From Paludibacteraceae bacterium (GTDB taxonomy: Bacteria; Bacteroidota; Bacteroidia; Bacteroidales; Paludibacteraceae): 34,762 nt of DNA. Each line of letters opens with the position of its first letter. Within the stretch, counting starts at the first letter, position 1. Shown piece after piece: positions 4,001 to 26,558 of this stretch. The stretch covers positions 1-34,762 of the forward strand of contig JAKSNW010000018.1 in assembly GCA_024405895.1 (NCBI GenBank), read 5' to 3'. The notes under the pieces are model-generated. The model was not told the DNA's origin. It saw nothing but the letters and a program-made list of their open reading frames with translations, and did no database searches. Position numbers and translations under genes: made by a program.

Positions 4001-4687
4001 TTACCAGTCTTTTTCCACTTTACTACGTTTAGCCATGCGAGCCTCTTTTTCCTTCACTTTGTCTTGTGTCTGTTTTTCGTCTTGTTGAAGCATTTCAAGC
4101 AGTTGTTCAGCTTTGTCTTTCGACATATTAGGCTGAGGCTGCTGTTGAGGCTGTTGCTGTTGTTGTTGATCTTGTTGCTGCTGCTGTTGTTGCTGTTGCT
4201 GATCCTGCTTTTGTTCCTGCTGTTGCTGATTTTGCTGGTTTTGCTGCTGCTGTTGTTTTTGGAGCAGTGCCTGTGCAAAAGCCAGATTATAGCGGGTATC
4301 ATTGTCGGTTGGATTATTGCGCAGAGCCTGTTTGTAGGCGGCGATACATTGTTCCAACTGACCAGCCTTAAGCAACGAGTTACCCATGTTATGAAGGCAT
4401 GAAGCCTTACGTTTCTTGTCATCGCCAGCCAACGAGAGCGCATGACTGTATTGCTTGGCAGCTTCCTCGTATTTCTCCTGACGGAACAACGAGTTGCCCA
4501 GATTGTAGCTGCTGGCAAACGATTTGTCGTTCTTTTCCAAGCCGCGACGATACTCTACCTCAGCATCCACATACTCATCTTTATTGTAGAGGCGGTTGCC
4601 ATGTCTCACATCCTTGGCTTCCTGTTGTGCACTGAGCGAAAGTGATATGAGAAGGAGCATTATGATTAATGAATAACACGGTTTCAT
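4001..4687 (-). CDS. batC: BatC: TPR protein with long glutamine tract
   Basis: A 228-residue exported protein: signal peptide (1-20, SLSA then QQ), TPR repeats (about 28-140, e.g. RHGNRLYNKDEYVDAEVEYRRGLE and HNMGNSLLKAGQLEQCIAAY in part), a glutamine-rich stretch (143-186) broken only by a few N, D, E, K and P, then a charged tail ending KVEKDW. BatC proteins are periplasmic TPR partners of the Bat complex. Its ATG overlaps the batB stop by four bases (ATGA), which implies translational coupling. The Gln tract is encoded by mixed CAA/CAG codons and is much longer than needed for a plain linker. Confidence 0.9.
   Translation of the reverse strand: MKPCYSLIIMLLLISLSLSAQQEAKDVRHGNRLYNKDEYVDAEVEYRRGLEKNDKSFASSYNLGNSLFRQEKYEEAAKQYSHALSLAGDDKKRKASCLHNMGNSLLKAGQLEQCIAAYKQALRNNPTDNDTRYNLAFAQALLQKQQQQQNQQNQQQQEQKQDQQQQQQQQQQDQQQQQQPQQQPQPNMSKDKAEQLLEMLQQDEKQTQDKVKEKEARMAKRSKVEKDW
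4130..4261 (-). repeat. Low-complexity CAG/CAA tract encoding poly-Gln in BatC
   Basis: The DNA encodes residues 143-186 of BatC and is an irregular run of CAG and CAA codons, read on the plus strand as TTG/CTG triplets. The mixture of the two codons makes slippage less likely than in a pure repeat, but length differences between strains would be expected. Confidence 0.85.
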
Positions 4688-14653: not shown

Positions 14654-17086
14654 TCAACCCTTCTTGCGTCTACTCTGGAAAAGTGCCCTTCTAATCTTAT
14701 TCAGACGGCTTTCTTCCACATCATCATCGGTGTAATAATTGTGAGAACCGCCATAATTTCCGTAACCATAGCCGTAACCGTAGCCATAACCATAGCCGTA
14801 GCCATAACCAGACAGTTTACGTTGGTTCACATCGTTGACAACGACATGAAGATCGCTCACACAATCCTTCATCAATTGTTTTGTGAACGATTTGAATCCA
14901 GACATACTGGTCTTAGTACTACGAACCACTAAGAGGTTGATATCAGAGATAGGCATCAACGCATAGGCATCTGGCACGAGACCAAGAGGACTTGTATCTA
15001 TAATAATATAGTTGTATCGTTTTTTGAGTTCCTGCAACATATCCACGCAAGCCTGAGAGCGAATCAACTCAGCAGGATCAGGAGGAATGGTACCTACAGG
15101 GAGGAAATCGAAGCCGAATTCCGTATTCTTCATGATTACGTCATCAAGCGAGCAATTACCTATCATATAGTCCACAGAGCCTCTTTCCTGATAGGAGAAA
15201 CCGAGCAGGGCACGTTGACTCGGCTTACGAAGGTCAAAGTCAATAAGCAAGGTATTCTTGTTCATCAAGCCATAAGTAGCGGCAAAGTTCGCGGAGAAGA
15301 AACTCTTACCATCACCAGACTCTGCAGAAGTAATCGTAATCATCATTGGAGCCTTACGTTTCAAGATAAACTCAATACGGGTACGCAACGTACGCAATGA
15401 CTCCAAGAACACCGAATTAGGATAGTGAATGGCTGCAATGGTCTTGCGGCCGGTTTGCTGGTGTTGAACTTCACCAAGGACAGGGAAGTTGCAGCAACGC
15501 TCCACATCAGCCGATGTTTTGACGGTAAAGGAGAGGAATTCCTTCAAGATTACAAATGCCGTAGGAATCAACAAGCCAATCAAAAGGAACATCAGGTAAA
15601 CCTTCGATTTGTTGCCGCCGTTTGTCATCGACAGAACACGTGCTTCCTGAAGGATACGGTAGTCGGTTGTATTGGAGACCTTACGAATCTGTGATTCGAA
15701 ACGTTTTTGCAGCAGGAAGGTATAGTACGAGTCGTTGATTTTATACTGACGCTCGTAACTGATCATGCGTTGCTGTTTCTCTGGCAACTGACTCATCGCA
15801 AGGTTCAGCTTAGCGACCTCTGAGTTGAAGCTGTTGCGTTCAAGACGATATACCTGCTTAACATTATTCAAGACCTCCAACAAAGACTGACGGAGGTGAG
15901 CCATTTGTTTTGTGTAAACTTCGTAGTTCGGGTTTTTAGGACCAACCTCCATACGTTTTGTCTGAACAGTATTATACTGTCCAACCAAAGAAAGCAACGT
16001 AGGATCTGCCACGCCAAGACTTGAAGGTGCAACCAGTGCATTCTCATCCTCAGTTCCATGTGACAAATAGTCGGAGAGGTAACGGAAATACTTATCCTTA
16101 TTATCAAGTTCCAGACGTTTCTGATCAAGTGAATTTGTCTTGGTAATCAGTTCCTGAGAATAAGAGTTGATATCCAAGATATTATTTGACACACGATAGT
16201 TACGCATGCTATTCTCAGCAACGGCAAGTGAGTCGCCAAGATAAAGCAACTGATCGTCGATAAACTCAATAGTTCTTACCGCCTCACGGTTTTTCTCCTC
16301 GAGGTTATCAGCAAGGAACATAGTATCCAACGTATTCAAGAAGTCCTGGTCACGTTTAATATCGTTACTTACGAGCGAAATGCTGATAACTGAAGAACGG
16401 TCAGTTACGTAGCTCGCATTCAGTCGACCTGCAAACTCGCTGACCAAAGACTCTTCCGTGCGGAAACGGAAACCAAATGTGCGGTCTTTCAAGTCGGTGT
16501 AGATAGGTTCAACTTTCACAGAGAACACCTCATTACCGACAGGAACACCATAATTTCCATCCAAAGAGAAAACCTCATCTTTATCCCGAAGAGCTGTAAT
16601 ACGGAACTTATCCTTCGATTTTCCCTCAAATTTGAATATATAGCTATAAGCAGAGCCGCTAATGCTAAGTACCTCCATACTTACAGGAGGATTTTCATAA
16701 AGCGAGCGTTGACGGAAGCGGCCCATCTGGAAAAAGTCGATTTGCAGCTTCGGCATCTGTTGCACAGTCTTACGCATCATCTCATAGCTCTTGAGCATGA
16801 GGAGCACGTCGCTGTTGTTCGAGTAGCTGGCTGAGGCAAAGCCCTGCATAAAAGCATAGTCACGCGAATTCTGAGAGTTAGAAACCATCACTTTGGTTTC
16901 ACTCATATAAGTAGGCAACCATTTGCGGTTCTTAAGATAAGCCAATGACAATGCCACCAACACGGCAAGCACGAAAAGATACCAATAGTGGACGAAACGC
17001 GCCACCCACATCATAATATCAAACGAGGAGCTTTCCTCGGTGAAAACTTCGCCTTGCACGTATTTATTTGTTTGATTTTCTTCCAT
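14654..17086 (-). CDS. Wzc-type polysaccharide co-polymerase and tyrosine autokinase
   Basis: An 810-residue BY-kinase. Layout: transmembrane helix (about 33-50), Wzz-type periplasmic domain with coiled coils (about 55-490), second helix (about 496-515), cytoplasmic kinase with Walker A SAESGDGKS (587-595), Walker A' LLIDFDLRKP (612-621), and Walker B IIIDTSP (694-700). The C-terminal tyrosine cluster, the site of trans-autophosphorylation, is an alternating Gly-Tyr repeat (760-779) followed by two more Tyr (784-785). These kinases control chain length and export of capsule or exopolysaccharide with an outer-membrane Wza channel, and two Wza-like genes precede it. It starts 27 bases after the second of them. 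Confidence 0.94.
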   Translation of the reverse strand: MEENQTNKYVQGEVFTEESSSFDIMMWVARFVHYWYLFVLAVLVALSLAYLKNRKWLPTYMSETKVMVSNSQNSRDYAFMQGFASASYSNNSDVLLMLKSYEMMRKTVQQMPKLQIDFFQMGRFRQRSLYENPPVSMEVLSISGSAYSYIFKFEGKSKDKFRITALRDKDEVFSLDGNYGVPVGNEVFSVKVEPIYTDLKDRTFGFRFRTEESLVSEFAGRLNASYVTDRSSVISISLVSNDIKRDQDFLNTLDTMFLADNLEEKNREAVRTIEFIDDQLLYLGDSLAVAENSMRNYRVSNNILDINSYSQELITKTNSLDQKRLELDNKDKYFRYLSDYLSHGTEDENALVAPSSLGVADPTLLSLVGQYNTVQTKRMEVGPKNPNYEVYTKQMAHLRQSLLEVLNNVKQVYRLERNSFNSEVAKLNLAMSQLPEKQQRMISYERQYKINDSYYTFLLQKRFESQIRKVSNTTDYRILQEARVLSMTNGGNKSKVYLMFLLIGLLIPTAFVILKEFLSFTVKTSADVERCCNFPVLGEVQHQQTGRKTIAAIHYPNSVFLESLRTLRTRIEFILKRKAPMMITITSAESGDGKSFFSANFAATYGLMNKNTLLIDFDLRKPSQRALLGFSYQERGSVDYMIGNCSLDDVIMKNTEFGFDFLPVGTIPPDPAELIRSQACVDMLQELKKRYNYIIIDTSPLGLVPDAYALMPISDINLLVVRSTKTSMSGFKSFTKQLMKDCVSDLHVVVNDVNQRKLSGYGYGYGYGYGYGYGYGNYGGSHNYYTDDDVEESRLNKIRRALFQSRRKKG
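14750..14809 (-). repeat. Gly-Tyr codon repeat at the kinase C-terminus
   Basis: About eight tandem 6-base units (GGN TAY) encode residues 760-775 as an unbroken Gly-Tyr alternation, followed by an imperfect unit to residue 779. Third-base differences between units show it is not a very recent pure expansion. It supplies at least nine tyrosines in 19 residues. Confidence 0.85.
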
Positions 17087-17113
17087 TGTATGAATAGTTC
17101 GACAATGAGTTTA

Positions 17114-17914
17114 TTATTTTTCTGCTCCTGCTCTCTGTTTTACCTGCAAGATGAGGTTGGTCATCGTGGCCACAAAGCCTACAGACGAAGATATCATGCC
17201 AATGATATTCGAATAGGACGATGCTGCCCAGAATCGTTTAGCAGAGAGATCTACATAGATAATATCGTTAGGATAAACATAGTAGTATTCAGAATCGAGA
17301 ATTGAGAGCGTTCGGATATCAAACTCTTTGATTTCTGTTCCGTGTGGTGTTTCACGAATAATTTTCACATTCGAGAAATCGCCATACTCGCTTATATCGC
17401 CCGAAGCTGCCAAGGCTTGGAAGATAGTCAGTCGCTCTTTGTAAATAGGATAATAACCACGTTTTGCACTACCTATCACGCAGTAAGTGCTGGTATTGAG
17501 TGCCAGTTTCACGCGAATATCATCAGCAAAGCCCTTAAGTTGTTCTTCCACGTATCTTTCAGCCTCACGAAGTGTCTTGCCCGCCAGATTGACATGAGAG
17601 AGATGAGGAAGATCTGCCGTTCCGTCAGGATAGATTGTGTAAGTAAAGGTATTTGCGGAATTATTATTACCACCATTATCCATCGTAGGGAACAACGACA
17701 TCACATCTTTATTACTGCTTATCACACGAATCACCAATTCATCGTAAGGACGAAGTTTGTATTCCTGGTACACGCCCTGTTCATAAACAGGCAAGCCGCT
17801 ACGGTCTTGCAGGTAGCCATTGGCGCGTCGTGAATAACAGCCGGAGCACACCACTGTAACAACAATGCAGTAGCATACTATATATAATATATGTAATCTT
17901 GAGTTCTTCATCAT
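17114..17914 (-). CDS. Wza-type polysaccharide export lipoprotein (second copy)
   Basis: About 266 residues from ATG 17914 (MMKNSRLH). It has a lipoprotein signal peptide with lipobox VCSGC, then the polysaccharide export domain (YKLRPYDELVIRV) and a SLBB-type segment (GYYPIYKERLTIFQALAASGDISEY). A C-terminal hydrophobic helix (SNIIGMISSSVGFVATM) would cross the outer membrane as in Wza. An in-frame upstream ATG at 17941 overlaps the preceding gene by 17 bases and gives an unusually polar N-terminus, so I prefer 17914. It is a paralogue of the preceding gene and directly precedes the tyrosine kinase. Confidence 0.88.
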   Translation of the reverse strand: MMKNSRLHILYIVCYCIVVTVVCSGCYSRRANGYLQDRSGLPVYEQGVYQEYKLRPYDELVIRVISSNKDVMSLFPTMDNGGNNNSANTFTYTIYPDGTADLPHLSHVNLAGKTLREAERYVEEQLKGFADDIRVKLALNTSTYCVIGSAKRGYYPIYKERLTIFQALAASGDISEYGDFSNVKIIRETPHGTEIKEFDIRTLSILDSEYYYVYPNDIIYVDLSAKRFWAASSYSNIIGMISSSVGFVATMTNLILQVKQRAGAEK

Positions 17915-17924
17915 TTCCGTGGGG

Positions 17925-18692
17925 TTATCTAAAGCGTTCAACTAATCCCCACACCAACATTCCAAGCGAAACGGTGGAAAGCACTGTGGATATCAAACCG
18001 GTGATGTGACGCACTCCAAAATACTTAGCATTAGAGAATTGCACATATATCACATCATTCGGTTGAATATAATAATACTCCGAATTGATGATTGATTCGC
18101 TACGCAAGTCAAACTCCTTGACTACCGTGCCGTTGACGGTCTGGCGAATCAGTTTTATTTTTGTGCGGTCGGAATAATCCGAGAGGTCGCCACTCATGGC
18201 AAGCGCCTGGAAGATATTCAGTTGTTCCTTAGGAATAGTATATCTGCCGGCACCGCTCTCCCCTATTATTGAGAACGTTCCATTGGCAAGACGAACATCC
18301 ACCGTAAACGTATTCATCATATCCTTCAAAGCATCCTCAAGGGTTGCCTTAACCTCACGCAATGTCTTACCCAGCACAGGTACAGAGCCTACATAAGGGA
18401 AATTGATTGTTCCGTCTTCTTCAACAAGATAAAGATAGAGACGTGAATGTGCATTATCGCCATTGAGACGGATCTGTCGACGACCGTTGTTAAAAAGCTG
18501 TTCGTCCGACTCAACCATTGAGCTCACGCGAACATCCAGATAGTCGCCCCGTTGCATCGTGTACTCAGAAAAAGGCACACTATCATACTGCGGAAGCGAA
18601 CTACGTTTCTGCAAATAGTTGTAATTGCTGCGCGAAACACACGAGCAAAGACTCACAACCATCAATAAATAAAGGAGATATCTAAACTTCAT
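17925..18692 (-). CDS. Wza-type polysaccharide export lipoprotein (first copy)
   Basis: A 255-residue protein with lipobox LCSC at about residues 15-18, the export domain (YTMQRGDYLDVRVSS), a SLBB-like segment (GRYTIPKEQLNIFQALAMSGDLSDY in part) and a C-terminal hydrophobic helix (about 230-252). It belongs to the outer-membrane polysaccharide export family that forms the Wza channel. It is the first gene of the module, with its own promoter. Shared phrases with the next gene (NIFQALA.SGD, YYY.PNDIIYV) show an old tandem duplication. Confidence 0.9.
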   Translation of the reverse strand: MKFRYLLYLLMVVSLCSCVSRSNYNYLQKRSSLPQYDSVPFSEYTMQRGDYLDVRVSSMVESDEQLFNNGRRQIRLNGDNAHSRLYLYLVEEDGTINFPYVGSVPVLGKTLREVKATLEDALKDMMNTFTVDVRLANGTFSIIGESGAGRYTIPKEQLNIFQALAMSGDLSDYSDRTKIKLIRQTVNGTVVKEFDLRSESIINSEYYYIQPNDVIYVQFSNAKYFGVRHITGLISTVLSTVSLGMLVWGLVERFR

Positions 18693-20391: not shown

Positions 20392-21585
20392 TTACTTGTG
20401 ACTACGTTTATGAAGCAGGCAACCAAAGACCAGCACGAAAACAAAGCAGCACAATGGTAGCACAAAGCCAAAACTGATACTGTTCTCACCAATCCTACCC
20501 ATAACGACAGGAGCAATGGCACCTCCCACAATCGACATGGTCAGCAGCGAAGAAGCCAATGCCGTATGCTCTCCCGCCAAAACAATGCTTTGCGAGAAAA
20601 TGGTTGGAAACATCACACTCTCAAAGAAAAAGCATAGACAGAGGGCAACAACAGAGAAAATGCCATGATTGGCAATCACAGCCAGCATGCAAGCTACTGC
20701 GCCAAGTGCGCATATTATCAGCAGTTTGGCAGGAGCCACACGACTCATCACTGCAGTACCCAACAGACGACCGAGCATAAACAATGCCATACCGCCAAAT
20801 GACAGCAAGACAGCAGCCATTCGAGGTGTCATGTCTGGCAAACTTTCCAAAACGAAATTGATAAAGAAACTATTGATACCAGTCTGAGCTGCCACATAGA
20901 GCATCAAGGTCAATATGCCAAAAAGAAACAAACCATTACGCCAAAGCATTCCAGACTGCGTATCAGCCACATCCGCTTGTTTTTCCACAGAAATCTCCGG
21001 CAGTTTCACAAAGACAAAAACCACAGCCAAGACAGCCACCACGCAGCCAATCAACGCATAAGGAAGTGCCAGGTTGCTGTCTTCGCCAAAAATCAGCAAG
21101 CCACCAAGCAGTGGGCCGACAATCCAACCTAAGCCATTGAATGACTGAGCGAGATTCAATCGTCTTGACGCATCGGCAGAGTCGCCCATGATGGAGACGT
21201 AAGGATTTGACGATGTTTCCAGACAGGTCAAACCGCATCCTATCACAAAAAGAGAGAATAGGAAAAACGGGAACGACATCAGCCTGCTACCAGGAATAAA
21301 CAGAAAAGCACCGATGGCAAACAGCGTCAATCCCACGATGATACCACGACGGTAGCCCCACTTGCGGATTATCCAGCCGGCAGGCAAAGCCATAAGGAAA
21401 TAGCCGCCATAAACCATGGTTTGGACCAATCCCGACTGTGCCTTCGATATCTCCAACACCGTCTGAAAGTGTTTGTTAAGCACATCGAGTATGCTATGGG
21501 CTACACCCCAAAGCAAAAACAATGATGCCACCAGAAAAAACGGAGCTATATAGTTTACGCCTTGTTTGGTTTTGAACATCGACAT
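20392..21585 (-). CDS. FucP-family sugar:proton symporter
   Basis: A 397-residue MFS transporter with about 12 hydrophobic helices. The FucP-type signatures are FLLWGVAHSILDVLNKHFQ in helix 1, YGGYFLMALPAGW, CLETSSNPYVS, and LAQSFNGLGWIVGP. FucP homologues import L-fucose and related sugars with protons; the exact sugar is not readable from sequence. The ATG at 21585 (MSMFKTKQG) lies ten bases after the mutarotase stop; the longer frame to 21615 starts with TTG and overlaps that gene, so I reject it. It is the last gene of the three-gene sugar unit. Confidence 0.88.
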   Translation of the reverse strand: MSMFKTKQGVNYIAPFFLVASLFLLWGVAHSILDVLNKHFQTVLEISKAQSGLVQTMVYGGYFLMALPAGWIIRKWGYRRGIIVGLTLFAIGAFLFIPGSRLMSFPFFLFSLFVIGCGLTCLETSSNPYVSIMGDSADASRRLNLAQSFNGLGWIVGPLLGGLLIFGEDSNLALPYALIGCVVAVLAVVFVFVKLPEISVEKQADVADTQSGMLWRNGLFLFGILTLMLYVAAQTGINSFFINFVLESLPDMTPRMAAVLLSFGGMALFMLGRLLGTAVMSRVAPAKLLIICALGAVACMLAVIANHGIFSVVALCLCFFFESVMFPTIFSQSIVLAGEHTALASSLLTMSIVGGAIAPVVMGRIGENSISFGFVLPLCCFVFVLVFGCLLHKRSHK

Positions 21586-21595
21586 ATCAATAAGA

Positions 21596-21934
21596 TTATT
21601 TCTTATCCAACTCAAAAATCTTCTCCATCAATTGCCACTTCTCCGTTGAAGGTACATTAGGGTCACAGCCCTGAAACTGCGCTACATAGGCTTCCCATTC
21701 AGCCTGGCGTGGCAACGTTGCCAAACGGGCATTATCCTTTACCCAATCAAAATCATCCACCGTATCGCAAATCATAAAGAGCGTTGTTCCCTTGCGGAAA
21801 ATCTGCATATCAAGGATGCCGACACTACGGATACCTTGCTGAATTTCAGGCCACACATGAGCATGTGCCTCACAATATTGCTCTATGAGTTTCGGGTCGT
21901 CTTTGAGATTGAGAATCTGACAATAGCGTTTCAT
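21596..21934 (-). CDS. L-rhamnose mutarotase (RhaM/COG3254) family protein
   Basis: A 112-residue protein of the RhaM fold. The conserved N-terminal motif appears as AHAHVWPE (residues 23-30), in which H24 aligns with the catalytic His of E. coli RhaM. The family interconverts alpha and beta anomers of L-rhamnose and, in several Bacteroidota clusters, L-fucose. Here it stands between a FucP-type permease and a kinase-like gene, so its job is probably to supply the anomer that the next enzyme needs. It starts one base after the fusion gene ends. Confidence 0.85.
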   Translation of the reverse strand: MKRYCQILNLKDDPKLIEQYCEAHAHVWPEIQQGIRSVGILDMQIFRKGTTLFMICDTVDDFDWVKDNARLATLPRQAEWEAYVAQFQGCDPNVPSTEKWQLMEKIFELDKK

Positions 21935-21935
21935 A

Positions 21936-23114
21936 TTACATACCTTTTCTACGGATATTCAACTTGATAGCCTCAGGATGTTTAGCCATAAAGGCAGAGA
22001 GGTCGTCAACCACGAGAGCAAGATAGCCTCCACCACCGGCACCAGCCATTTTCCATGCCAAAGCCTCATCGGCATATTTGCGGATATAATTCTCCACACC
22101 AGGCTGCATCATGGCAGGGAACATAGCCACCTGAGCATCGAACGAGGCTTTGAAATATTTGGCAAAGTCGGGCAGATTGCGGGCAATGATAGCATACCAG
22201 CATCCGTCGGCAGCATCTGCCAATCGTTCCACACCCTCCTTAGTGATGTTTTTGTTCAAGGTCACGTCAAGGCCTGCACGTCTTGGAAACATTTTCACCA
22301 TGCAGAAATGATGCTCCAACCATCGCAAAACCGTTTCGTCATGACAAGATTCAAGACGTTCCGGCCAGAATGCATTATTATAATAGTGACGACAGAGTCC
22401 TGGCATACAGATACCCAAAGCGTCCTGAGCGCCAGAAATATGTCCTTCACGTTTCGACGGATCGTTTTCGAAGCAGAATGCCAGCTTCGCAATCATTTCA
22501 GGATTGAAAGAAGGCAGCTGCACAGGCCATATCTTCTTCATCATATTACGGGTAGAGGTAGAAAGGCCGCAGCGCTCCTCTATCGGGAAACTCGGTTCGA
22601 GCGAAATTGTCAAAGCCCAGCCTGGTGCATAGCATGAGACATAAGGTTGGTCAATCCAAGTACCAGCCAAGTCGAGACGTGTTGGCAACTGCGACGTTTC
22701 CTTACGCAATGCCGTGGTAGAGCGAGCCTTAAGACCTGTGTCTGGCAGTCGCTGAAGCACCACATACTCAATGCCACGCTCTCGGCAGAACTCAGCTTTT
22801 ACATCGGAAGCACCGTCTTCGTTCACCACAAAGATGTCTGGTTTTACCACACGGTCTACGATGTCCACAAAGTCCATGATTCCGCTATTGGTATTGATAT
22901 AGGCATCAGTAACGTAACGAATGGCCTTAACCATATAGAGACGTTCGGTTTCCGAATAAACCGGCAGTCGGCCCTTATAGCCAAGAATGGTCTGATCGGA
23001 ACCGATACCTACATAGAGGTCACCGTATTGCGATGCCTCCTTGAAGAATGCCACGTGACCGCTGTGCAACATGTCATAGCAACCACTAACAAATACTTTC
23101 TTTCTTTTTTCCAT
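21936..23114 (-). CDS. Nucleotidyltransferase-GHMP kinase fusion protein
   Basis: 392 residues in two domains. Residues 4-140 form a cytidylyltransferase-like Rossmann domain: FVSGCYDMLHSGH with HxGH at 17-20, VGIGSD, and RSTTALR (131-137) as the ISSTxIR-type motif. Residues about 143-392 resemble a GHMP sugar kinase: RLDLAGTWID (146-155, motif 1), CGLSTST (182-188, a degenerate GLGSS motif 2), GAQDALG (228-234) and AGAGGGGY (357-364, motif 3). The kinase part is shorter than most. The layout parallels HldE (sugar kinase plus HxGH transferase) but with a different kinase family. The ATG at 23114 is chosen because a promoter lies between it and the in-frame ATG at 23171. Substrate unknown; a fucose- or heptose-like sugar is the best guess from its neighbours. 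Confidence 0.8.
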   Translation of the reverse strand: MEKRKKVFVSGCYDMLHSGHVAFFKEASQYGDLYVGIGSDQTILGYKGRLPVYSETERLYMVKAIRYVTDAYINTNSGIMDFVDIVDRVVKPDIFVVNEDGASDVKAEFCRERGIEYVVLQRLPDTGLKARSTTALRKETSQLPTRLDLAGTWIDQPYVSCYAPGWALTISLEPSFPIEERCGLSTSTRNMMKKIWPVQLPSFNPEMIAKLAFCFENDPSKREGHISGAQDALGICMPGLCRHYYNNAFWPERLESCHDETVLRWLEHHFCMVKMFPRRAGLDVTLNKNITKEGVERLADAADGCWYAIIARNLPDFAKYFKASFDAQVAMFPAMMQPGVENYIRKYADEALAWKMAGAGGGGYLALVVDDLSAFMAKHPEAIKLNIRRKGM

Positions 23115-23149: not shown

Positions 23150-23176
23150 GCACTTTTTGTCCGAATCGCATCCTCC

Positions 23177-23276: not shown

Positions 23277-26200
23277 ATGAAAAAAATCGCTTCACTTATA
23301 GTTCTTTGCCTCAGCGCATTGACTATGTTGCAAGCCTCACCTCTGTGGATGCGTTACAACACCATCTCACCACAAGGCGACCGCATTGCATTCAGTTACA
23401 AAGGCGACATCTACGTGGTAAACGCCCAAGGCGGCACAGCTCGGCAGCTCACCACCAACAGCGCCTACGATTTCAATCCTGTTTGGAGTAACGACGGCAA
23501 GACCATTGCTTTTGCGTCCGACCGCAACGGCAACTTCGACGTCTACACAGTGCCTGCTCAAGGCGGTGTAGCCAAACGTGTCACCTACAACTCCGCTGCA
23601 GAAACACCTATGGCTTTCTCTGCCGACGACAAAGCCATCTATTTCACAGCTTATATCCAGAAAGACTTTGCCTATGTGCAATTCCCTTCTGGTTGGATGA
23701 CAGAGCTCTACTCTGTTCCTGTGGAAGGTGGTCGCCCAGTACAGGTTACACCTGCCACCGTTTGCTCCATGAGTCTTGCTGCAGACGGCAAATCATTCCT
23801 CTACACCAACCGCACAGGCAGTGAGAACATCTGGCGTAAGCACCAGGTTTCTTCCGTAGCTCGCGACATTTTCTACTATGATGCCAAGAAAGGTACACAC
23901 CGCCAAATCACCACCAACGTTGGTGAAGACCGCGATGCACGTTTCATTGCCGGCACCAAAGATATGGTATTCCTCAGCGAACGCAACGGCGGCACATTCA
24001 ATGTCTACCGTGCTTCTGTTGACAACGCAGAAAAAGCTGTGGCTATCACCAATTTCAAGAACCACCCAGTTCGTTTCCTTTCCGTTGCCAACAATGGTAC
24101 CGTTTGTTATAACTACATGGGCGAGATTTACACCCAAATGCCTAACGGTCAACCAAAGAAAGTAAACATTGAATTGGTAAACGACCAAGACAACACCCCA
24201 CAACGCGGTTCATTCGGCCGTGCATCTCAACTGCGAATCACCCCTGACGGCAAGCAGATTGCTTTCGTGGTTCGCGGTGAAATCTTTGTGACTACCGACG
24301 AATACGCCACAACCAAGCAAATCACCCATACTGCCGAAGCCGAACTCCAGCCAACCTTCTCACCTGACGGTAAGAAACTCGTCTACACCTCAGAGCGCGA
24401 CGGTTTCTTTGCACTCTACATGGCAACCATGGAGCGCAGCGAGGAGAAGAACTTCGCCTATGCGACCCTTGTCAAGGAAGAGCCTCTCTTCAAAGACCAC
24501 ATCGAACGCACCAACGCAGAGTTCTCACCAGACGGCAAGGAGATTGCGTTCATTGAACAACGCCGCTACCTTAAGGTAATGAACTTGGCAACCAAGGCTG
24601 TACGTCAAATCACCGATGGCACACAACATTACGGCACCGACGAGTGGACCATGGATTACCAGTGGTCGCCTGACGGCAAATGGTTTGCCATCACACTCAT
24701 CAGCAACCGCCGCGAACCATATTCTGACGTTGGCATCATCTCTGCCGACGGCAAGGATCACAAGATCCACAATATCACCAACGACGGTTATATCACCACC
24801 AACCCACAATGGGTGCTCGACGGCAACGCCATCATCTTCCAATCCAACCGCCTCGGCATGCGTTCACATGCTTCATGGGGTTCACAGGAAGACGTATTCA
24901 TCGCCTTCATGAACCAAGACGCCTACGATAAATTCCATCTTTCAAAAGAGGAATACCAACGCGTTAAGGAAGAAGAAGAGGCCATGAAGAAAGCAGCCAA
25001 AGCTAACGAGAGCAACGACAAGAAGAAAGACGACAAGAAAGGAAAAGACGAAAAGAAGGAAGAGACCAAGGAGTCAAAAGGCGTTGAGGTTGACACCGAA
25101 CGTCTTGAAGAACGTGTCAGCCGCCTCACCCCAATGTCATCCAACCTCAGCGGCATCGCTCTTTCAAACGACGGCGAGAAACTCTATTTCCTCAGTGCAT
25201 TTGAAAAAGGTTACGACCTCTGGGAACTCAACACCCGCGAAGGCGGCACCAAGATTCTCAAGAAACTCGGCAGCAATGGCGGCAGCAATATCCTCATGAC
25301 CAAGAAAGGCGATGCCATGTTCCTGACAGCCAACGGAAGCATCCAGAAGATTGATACCAAAGGTTCTGCTACCCCAATCCAATACGACGCAACCATGGAA
25401 CTCGACCGTGCTGCTGAACGTGAGTATATGTTCAACCACGTGTTCCTCCAAGAGAACAAGCGTCTCTTCCGCCGCGACCACAACGGCGCCGACATGGACC
25501 TCATCCGTCGCGACTACGAGCCATTCCTTGAACATATCAACAACAACTACGACTTCTCTGAACTTCTCTCAGAAATTCTCGGCGAACTCAACGTATCACA
25601 CTCTGGTTCTGGCTACACCGGAACAAGCGTTGCCAATGGCGACGTGACCGCACAACTCGGTGTATTGCTTGACATGAGCTACACAGGCAAGGGCATCAAG
25701 ATCACCGAAGTGCTCAAAGATGGTCCGTTCGACAATAAGCACTCAAAAGTGAAAGCCGGCGACGTCATCGAGAAAATTGATGGTGTGGAAATCGAAGCCG
25801 ACAAAGACTACTACGCATTGCTTAACAAGAAAGTAGGCAAGATGGTGCTCGTAAGCATCAGCCGCGGTGGTCAGAAATGGGACGAGATTATCAAGCCAAT
25901 CAGCAAGAGCGCCCAGAACGAACTGCTCTATCAACGTTGGGTAAAACATAATGCCGAAATGGTAGAGAAACTCTCAGGCGGCAAACTCGGCTACGTTCAC
26001 ATCCGCAGCATGGCCGACGCAAGCTATCGTGATGTCTATGCAGACATTCTCGGTAAATACAATATGAAAGAAGGTATCGTTATCGACACCCGTTTCAACG
26101 GAGGTGGCCGTCTGCACGAAGACATCGAGACCCTCTTTAGCGGCGAGAAATATCTCGAGCAGGTAATCCGCGACACTGTATCATGTGTAATGCCTTCACG

Positions 26201-26558
26201 CCGTTACAACAAGCCATCTATCATGCTCGTCTGCGAAGCCAACTACAGCAACGCTCACGGCACACCATGGGTTTACAACTACAAGAAGATGGGCAAGATT
26301 GTCGGCATGCCTGTTCCTGGCACCATGAGTAGTGTTACCTGGGAAACCTTGCAAGACCCAACCCTCTACTTCGGTTTACCAGTTATCGGTTATCGCACCG
26401 AACAAGGCAACTACCTCGAGAACACACAACTCGAGCCAGACATCAAAGTACGCAACACACCAGAAAAAATGGCAGAAGGCGTTGACGAACAACTTGAGGC
26501 TGCTGTAAAAGCACTGCTTGAAGACCTCAAGAACTTCCACACTTGGGGCGAAAAATAA
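23277..26558 (+). CDS. Secreted tricorn-type S41 protease
   Basis: A 1093-residue exported protein: signal peptide (about 1-20, MLQA then SPLW), two beta-propeller regions built from PD40/TolB-like repeats (about 25-550 and 610-720, many with the SPDGKxIAF pattern), a highly charged Lys/Glu linker (about 555-603), a PDZ domain (about 790-865) and a C-terminal S41 peptidase core. Candidate catalytic residues are S774-H775 (NVSHSG), S991 (NYSNAHG) and E1023 (TWETLQ), with DTRFNGGG near 937. Tricorn proteases degrade peptides; bacterial versions in Bacteroidota are exported and probably act on peptides in the periplasm or outside. The gene stands alone with a promoter element and strong terminator. 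Confidence 0.9.
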   Translation: MKKIASLIVLCLSALTMLQASPLWMRYNTISPQGDRIAFSYKGDIYVVNAQGGTARQLTTNSAYDFNPVWSNDGKTIAFASDRNGNFDVYTVPAQGGVAKRVTYNSAAETPMAFSADDKAIYFTAYIQKDFAYVQFPSGWMTELYSVPVEGGRPVQVTPATVCSMSLAADGKSFLYTNRTGSENIWRKHQVSSVARDIFYYDAKKGTHRQITTNVGEDRDARFIAGTKDMVFLSERNGGTFNVYRASVDNAEKAVAITNFKNHPVRFLSVANNGTVCYNYMGEIYTQMPNGQPKKVNIELVNDQDNTPQRGSFGRASQLRITPDGKQIAFVVRGEIFVTTDEYATTKQITHTAEAELQPTFSPDGKKLVYTSERDGFFALYMATMERSEEKNFAYATLVKEEPLFKDHIERTNAEFSPDGKEIAFIEQRRYLKVMNLATKAVRQITDGTQHYGTDEWTMDYQWSPDGKWFAITLISNRREPYSDVGIISADGKDHKIHNITNDGYITTNPQWVLDGNAIIFQSNRLGMRSHASWGSQEDVFIAFMNQDAYDKFHLSKEEYQRVKEEEEAMKKAAKANESNDKKKDDKKGKDEKKEETKESKGVEVDTERLEERVSRLTPMSSNLSGIALSNDGEKLYFLSAFEKGYDLWELNTREGGTKILKKLGSNGGSNILMTKKGDAMFLTANGSIQKIDTKGSATPIQYDATMELDRAAEREYMFNHVFLQENKRLFRRDHNGADMDLIRRDYEPFLEHINNNYDFSELLSEILGELNVSHSGSGYTGTSVANGDVTAQLGVLLDMSYTGKGIKITEVLKDGPFDNKHSKVKAGDVIEKIDGVEIEADKDYYALLNKKVGKMVLVSISRGGQKWDEIIKPISKSAQNELLYQRWVKHNAEMVEKLSGGKLGYVHIRSMADASYRDVYADILGKYNMKEGIVIDTRFNGGGRLHEDIETLFSGEKYLEQVIRDTVSCVMPSRRYNKPSIMLVCEANYSNAHGTPWVYNYKKMGKIVGMPVPGTMSSVTWETLQDPTLYFGLPVIGYRTEQGNYLENTQLEPDIKVRNTPEKMAEGVDEQLEAAVKALLEDLKNFHTWGEK

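Follow-up and report, generated by a model that had tools for sequence, protein, structure and literature searches.

Three genes around an HxGH-GHMP fusion

The window, a stretch of 34,762 nucleotides (positions 1 to 34,762 of contig JAKSNW010000018.1), comes from a metagenome-assembled genome (MAG) of a Paludibacteraceae bacterium (GCA_024405895.1; 1.72 Mb, 78% complete) and carries on its minus strand a gene for a protein of 392 amino acids (21936..23114), which joins an HxGH nucleotidyltransferase (NT) domain to a compact GHMP-type domain and is proposed to encode an L-fucose-1-kinase/fucose-1-phosphate nucleotidyltransferase. It is the single match to the fusion in this MAG. The gene starts with the ATG at 23114, and a second in-frame ATG is open at 23171. 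On the same strand it is followed after one base by a gene for a mutarotase of the RhaM family, PF05336 (112 amino acids, 21596..21934), for which exchange of L-fucose anomers is proposed, and this in turn is followed after 10 bases by a gene for a FucP-type L-fucose:H+ symporter permease (397 amino acids, 20392..21585). The permease passes the cut-off of the equivalog model TIGR00885 (295.6 bits against 280.4) but not that of a second model, NF007524 (245 bits against 427). The mutarotase passes that of PF05336 (105.8 bits, 1.7e-30) and scores 19.7 bits with the L-rhamnose equivalog TIGR02625, against a cut-off of 99.6; its assignment is to the PF05336 family and does not extend to the rhamnose enzyme. 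The same three-gene unit with its one-base gap had been described in an initial annotation made from the sequence alone, and is confirmed by the coordinates and by these profiles together with those of the NT domain.

The NT domain (residues 1-135, 22710..23114) matches PF01467 over residues 9-109 (6.5e-12) and TIGR00125 (2.5e-14), both above cut-off, and contains HSGH at residues 17-20, K47, R58 and RSTT at residues 131-134; the HxGH and (I/R)STT motifs place it in the HxGH nucleotidyltransferase superfamily. Among 89 fusions, K47 and R58 are retained in all, H20 in 87, S132 and T134 in 84 each and H17 in 83 (of 88 readable copies). No NCBIfam equivalog model reaches its own cut-off with the fusion protein, and the matches of the NT domain below cut-off are to HldE domain II and TagD-like models. 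Its closest solved relatives in the PDB are mostly cytidylyltransferases of the ethanolamine-phosphate and glycerol-3-phosphate types. Among them are TagD/Pcyt2-type enzymes (1coz, 3elb), which presumably share the HxGH and (I/R)STT-type motifs but act on alcohol phosphates and have no GHMP partner. HldE, the heptose-7-phosphate kinase/heptose-1-phosphate adenylyltransferase, likewise combines an HxGH domain with a sugar kinase, and its model TIGR02199 matches the NT domain of the fusion at 50 bits (cut-off 181.5). However, the kinase of HldE is of the PfkB type and N-terminal, whereas that of the fusion is of the GHMP type and C-terminal; NF008454 gives 33 bits against a cut-off of 521 and covers only the NT part, and Pfam finds no PfkB match in the fusion.

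Five copies of the fusion (L070, L071, L072, L073 and L075) have a degenerate NT domain, in which H17 is replaced by N (NxGH or NxGQ for HxGH) and RSTT is lost, and have intact GHMP catalytic residues. Three of them come from one MAG, and a canonical copy is also present in the MAGs of L073 and L075 (L058 and L053, respectively, matched by isolate name). Both gmd and fcl lie within 6 kb of each of the five. This natural separation of the two sites hints at an independent role for the GHMP part.

The compact GHMP domain and its likeness to Fkp

The second domain (residues 143-392, 21939..22688) contains R146, W153, D155, a phosphate loop at residues 183-188, E216, Q230, D231 and GAGGGG at residues 358-363. 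As a single sequence it is a weak GHMP match (PF08544, 14.5 bits against a cut-off of 21). The family profile was made from alignment A2, which held 35 of 43 selected genes plus that of the window, nine genes without the STT motif, including the five NT-degenerate copies, having been excluded; alignment A1 held 35 of 47 usable loci plus the window, with L032 (in-frame stop) and L060 and L075 (short) skipped from 50. Against the PDB this profile finds the Fkp kinase first (1.4e-14), then the heptose-1-phosphate kinase 3k85 (1.2e-09) and mevalonate kinase (0.002), and the three motifs of the superfamily are present as RLDLAGTW, GLSTST and GAGGGG. The GHMP assignment is thus weak for the single sequence and firm for the family, and the combination of HxGH and GHMP folds put forward in the initial annotation is borne out at the level of sequence.

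Fkp of Bacteroides fragilis (PDB 5yys, 9iip, 9iit) resembles the fusion in carrying two activities with the NT part first and the GHMP kinase second, and among solved structures its kinase half matches the GHMP part best. In sections of the Fkp crystal paper, D762 is described as the general base, R592 is linked to the developing charge and W599 stacks on the sugar, with D601 and T602 contacting O3, D601 and Q761 contacting O4 and S719 contacting the metal (PMC11982464). Alignment to 20 Fkp proteins places R592, W599, D601, E751, Q761 and D762 at R146, W153, D155, E216, Q230 and D231 of the fusion, by which six of the seven side chains compared, T602 being the seventh, are matched; S719 and G759 are also kept, S720 is T or S, and the mapping of A900 is uncertain. 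The equivalents of R146, W153, D155, S187, E216, Q230 and D231 are identical across 15 fusion, 5 distant fusion and 20 Fkp proteins. All 89 fusions have R146, W153, D155, Q156, R181, S187, R189, Q230 and D231, and 88 have E at position 216; phosphate-loop positions 184-186 and 188 are variable. GHMP heptose kinases of the HddA/WcbL type and their relatives (3k85, 4n3o, 4usk), which are the second-best profile matches, differ in having G at the position of the fucose-stacking W (alignments of the heptose-7-phosphate kinase 4n3o and the sugar kinases 4usk and 4usm), in a longer stretch between motifs 1 and 2, and in chains of 342-357 residues without an NT part.

The fusion differs from Fkp in length (392 against about 950 residues) and in its NT fold, since the HxGH fold is unrelated to the sugar-nucleotide pyrophosphorylase with beta-helix of Fkp. 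The Fkp equivalog NF009948 (cut-off 721 bits) matches the fusion only over residues 306-374 (28.8 bits, 2.5e-07), and Fucose_pyrophosphorylase (PF07959) has no match in the fusion protein or in the window's MAG, which is 78% complete. The kinase part is also shorter by about 85 residues: the stretch from the first motif to the phosphate loop measures 29-30 residues in the 15 fusions and 39 in the distant group, against 108-115 in the 20 Fkp proteins. In Fkp the segment absent from the fusion contains most of the modelled adenine pocket, and four of the five positions against which the base is modelled in those sections of the crystal paper (I669, L722, M645, D644 and P666; PMC11982464) fall inside it. 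The initial annotation had made its reading depend on a GHMP fold and an ATP site; the motifs of the GHMP fold are found, but, judging by the spacing in the sequence alone, the adenine pocket that lies between the first two of them appears to be missing.

The fusion would accordingly pair a trimmed Fkp-like kinase with an unrelated NT fold, and its novelty would lie in this different domain pair for fucose salvage. In the literature covered by titles and the beginnings of abstracts, a scope outside which lie most subscription papers and all preprints, no description of an HxGH-GHMP fusion was found, and a term count in the main text of PMC12732313 gave 0 uses of cytidylyltransferase, adenylyltransferase or GHMP. 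Searched with a GHMP-only profile, a draw of 296 genomes from the phylum gave four genomes with strong matches, that of the window among them. All these matches lie in frames of at least 378 residues, so that a stand-alone compact domain was not seen among them; a further two, weaker at about 1e-12 and in shorter frames (352 and 355 residues), were left aside.

Distribution and gene neighbourhoods

At E <=1e-20 the fusion was found in 43 of 295 genomes drawn from the order, or 37 after removal of five distant matches and one partial match, and in 32 of 200 genomes drawn from the family. The genome_contigs set gave 53 loci, 50 of which span both domains, the others being two contig-edge fragments and one archaeal match to the NT domain only. 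The fusion is a family, beyond chance.

The survey of genome neighbourhoods that had been proposed in the initial annotation gave at least one of gmd, fcl, manC, fucP and rhaM within 6 kb in 26 of 39 close order-draw loci and in none of the six distant or partial ones (L128-L133). Over all 45 order-draw loci, GMD was found at 13, FCL at 10, ManC at 8, FucP at 12 and RhaM at 7; over 51 genome_contigs loci, from which the contig-edge fragments L080 and L081 were left out and in which the archaeal NT-only match L083 was kept, the counts were 17, 19, 1, 17 and 7 in the same order. When fucosidases and fuc catabolic genes were added, with looser limits and all 53 genome_contigs loci, at least one marker was found at 28 of 45 and 35 of 53 loci, respectively. 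As an internal control, neighbour families were grouped over the 44 order-draw loci fetched, and just seven recur in five or more of them: a cluster of short-chain dehydrogenases/reductases (SDR; 19 loci; gmd, fcl and other SDRs), FucP (11), ManC (10), RhaM (6), GH29 (6) and two families with general roles in glycan assembly, Polysacc_synt_2 (6) and WecA-like Glycos_transf_4 (5). Representatives of FucI, FucK, FucU and Gmd pass their equivalog cut-offs, those of Fcl (425 of 500 bits) and ManC (288 of 373 bits) fall below them although these are their best matches, and GH29 and GH95 were assigned by Pfam on representatives. Of the four loci fetched from outside the order, three have RhaM nearby, two have GMD-FCL and one has FucP.

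Single loci bring these genes together. The row GMD-FCL-fusion-RhaM-FucP is found in L069, which comes from Leyella lascolaii, and GH95 adjoins the fusion in L099 and L100 (Pfam run on L099). A RhaM domain is fused to the N-terminus in L109 (593 amino acids, PF05336 1.5e-20) and L125 (592 amino acids, 2.9e-21), both of which were scored as having no marker in the five-marker count. The fusion lies between FucU and FucI (TIGR01089, 1074 bits) in the L096 cluster of GH29, class II aldolase, FucP, FucU, fusion, FucI, FucK and GH29, and between an FGGY kinase and FucP in the L115 cluster of FucI, FGGY kinase, fusion, FucP and GH29. Salvage, as the initial annotation had supposed, is supported by these neighbours (gmd, fcl, fucP, rhaM, GH29, GH95, fucI and fucK) and by the Fkp-type sugar residues, and on the same grounds L-fucose is the best of the sugars it had listed.

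In the order draw Fkp, counted as PF07959 above cut-off, was found in 24 genomes and the fusion in 43, and no genome has both, against an expectation of 3.5 (P 0.019 by the hypergeometric distribution; 0.035 when only the 37 close fusion genomes are counted; kinship is ignored in both). The Fkp count excludes 31 of 55 genomes with sub-cut-off matches only (frames of 178-374 residues), two of which, G107 and G142, carry the fusion. The family draw has Fkp in 3 genomes, the fusion in 32 and both in none (lists compared by reading), which with 0.5 expected is uninformative alone. The exclusivity is modest. Both kinds occur in different genomes of the same families (f8, f20 and f23) and genera (g185 and g204). 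Like the fusion, some Fkp genes have rhaM and fucP nearby: in a set of 20 Fkp loci that extend only a short way from the gene, five have FucP (51-60% identical to the window's) and three a RhaM homologue. L136 alone has the full row of FCL, Fkp, RhaM and FucP on one strand, L139 and L140 have FucP after Fkp on the same strand, L151 has a RhaM-FucP pair divergent from Fkp, and in L144 RhaM is divergent with FucP beyond it. The window's FucP is closer to these permeases than to most of the fusion-linked ones (mostly 32-37%, with exceptions at 59-75%). It looks as if the fusion occupies the place held by Fkp elsewhere.

The five distant matches of the order draw (about 30% identity, in frames of 453-470 residues) are HxGH-GHMP fusions of 449-450 amino acids, L128-L132, in which the adenine segment is also absent and the Fkp-type W is present. 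None of GMD, FCL, ManC, FucP and RhaM lies within 6 kb of them, and they were set apart as a sister family with no sugar assigned. L129 has ribonucleotide reductase, a sugar transporter and GH2 nearby, and L128 an SDR, a glycosyltransferase and Wzi.

A candidate salvage route and its alternatives

In the pathway that we favour, FucP would import free L-fucose, the RhaM-family protein would exchange its anomers and so supply beta-L-fucose, the compact GHMP domain would phosphorylate C1 to give fucose-1-phosphate, and the HxGH domain would transfer a nucleotidyl group to this intermediate. The product would most likely be GDP-L-fucose, joining the de novo Gmd/Fcl pool for capsule, exopolysaccharide or glycoprotein. 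From the domains, the operon order, the neighbours, the conserved residues, the absent segment and the lack of co-occurrence with Fkp in the drawn genomes, we infer the substrate, the reaction order, the nucleotide, the phosphate donor and the activity itself. That L-fucose is activated to some nucleotide sugar is inferred with good confidence; the full statement, that the unit converts L-fucose through fucose-1-phosphate to GDP-L-fucose and that the fusion is a non-orthologous counterpart of Fkp, is probable to a lesser degree. The initial annotation had named CTP or ATP for the last step; the activation itself is kept, and GTP is now favoured by the gmd-fcl neighbours and by the apparent exclusivity with Fkp.

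Several observations weigh against this pathway. The nucleotide base cannot be read from the NT sequence, known relatives of the fold presumably use CTP or ATP, and the nearest solved ones are mostly the cytidylyltransferases named above. Five relatives next to gmd and fcl lack the NT motifs. Because the adenine-pocket segment is absent, use of ATP is not assured; moreover, the position of T602 is occupied by Q in the fusions and by V in the distant group, and that of the loop residue G717 by S or A in both groups. None of the five markers lies within 6 kb in 13 of 39 close order-draw loci (19 of all 45, with the six distant or partial ones) or in 20 of 51 genome_contigs loci, some of them cut by contig ends, and the exclusivity with Fkp is modest and uncorrected for kinship. 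The aldolase of L096 is best matched by rhamnulose-1-phosphate aldolase (NF002963, 285 bits against a cut-off of 170). In the window's MAG, incomplete as it is, Gmd was not found and the best Fcl candidate is an SDR at 24% identity; a genome of the same genus, G310, has Gmd. No fucosyltransferase was identified, in searches with PF01531 and PF00852 that were silent everywhere including controls and are hence non-informative.

The same pathway could run with CTP or ATP and yield CDP- or ADP-L-fucose for use by a distinct group of transferases, as the nearest solved NT relatives and the sub-cut-off matches to HldE domain II and TagD-like models would suggest; gmd, fcl and manC as neighbours, however, indicate a GDP-fucose pool, and the fact that fusion and Fkp never occur together in the two draws suggests the same product, so that we consider this unlikely. 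In a further alternative, which seems to us similarly unlikely, the GHMP domain has ceased to be a kinase and acts as a sensor of L-fucose or fucose-1-phosphate that regulates or scaffolds the synthesis of GDP-fucose by Gmd/Fcl. The loss of most of the Fkp adenine pocket would fit such a role, as would the five gmd/fcl-adjacent relatives that retain the GHMP residues without HxGH and RSTT. However, 88-89 of 89 fusions have the proposed general base D231 as well as R146, E216 and S187, which a pure binder would not need, H17 is widely kept too, and 28 of 45 order-draw loci have no gmd or fcl match (fucP or rhaM alone, or nothing), which argues that the enzyme is not tied to Gmd/Fcl. A domain without an adenine lobe might instead be a fucose 1-kinase using pyrophosphate, perhaps that released by its own NT partner, whereby fucose and one nucleoside triphosphate would give NDP-fucose and phosphate. 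The two phosphate-loop arginines kept in all 89 fusions, R181 and R189, speak for this rather improbable scheme; at the position of R181, 19 of 20 Fkp proteins have K or R, and at that of R189, 19 of 20 have a hydrophobic residue.

L-galactose and D-arabinose are often accepted by enzymes for L-fucose, and the fusion might activate one of these, 6-deoxy-talose or a heptose, given the profile match to heptose-1-phosphate kinase 3k85 and that of the NT domain to HldE domain II. As a set, however, fucI, fucU, GH29, GH95, gmd and fcl indicate L-fucose, and with W at the stacking position of Fkp W599 in every fusion another sugar is very unlikely. Least probable of all is a role of the unit in L-fucose breakdown, in which the fusion would be an accessory. 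The fusions of L096 and L115 do lie inside fucI-fucK clusters, but 43 of 45 order-draw loci, a few of them truncated where the contig stops, show no fucI match within 6 kb, the window's MAG has no FucI match, a weak negative at 78% completeness, and activation at C1 is not a catabolic step. These two clusters and the incompleteness of the MAG also weaken the argument of the initial annotation that the absence of breakdown genes speaks for salvage.

According to passages of PMC8698959, B. fragilis without both routes to GDP-L-fucose is rapidly lost in competition in the mouse gut, and T. forsythia, having no fkp, is taken to lack salvage. Should the fusion family produce GDP-fucose, a salvage route may be hidden in Bacteroidales that have been scored as salvage-negative, and an enzyme of 392 residues would replace one of about 950, which would be useful for producing GDP-fucose and fucosylated milk sugars. 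It would also mean that an HxGH enzyme can use a hexose-1-phosphate, perhaps together with GTP, and that a GHMP kinase can do without the usual adenine pocket.

Elsewhere in the window, an exopolysaccharide export set of two Poly_export proteins and a GNVR/AAA tyrosine-kinase-like protein (14654-18692) is encoded on the same strand as the fucose unit, at a distance of about 1.7 kb, and a phosphoribosyl pyrophosphate (PRPP) synthase gene lies between them on the opposite strand; the tyrosine-kinase-like protein has a run of GY repeats in its C-terminal part. Divergent from the fusion gene is a gene for a Tricorn-like protease of 1093 amino acids (23277-26558) with PD40 repeats, PDZ and Peptidase_S41. 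A 228-amino-acid protein with long glutamine runs, encoded at 4001-4687, has a TPR-like appearance.

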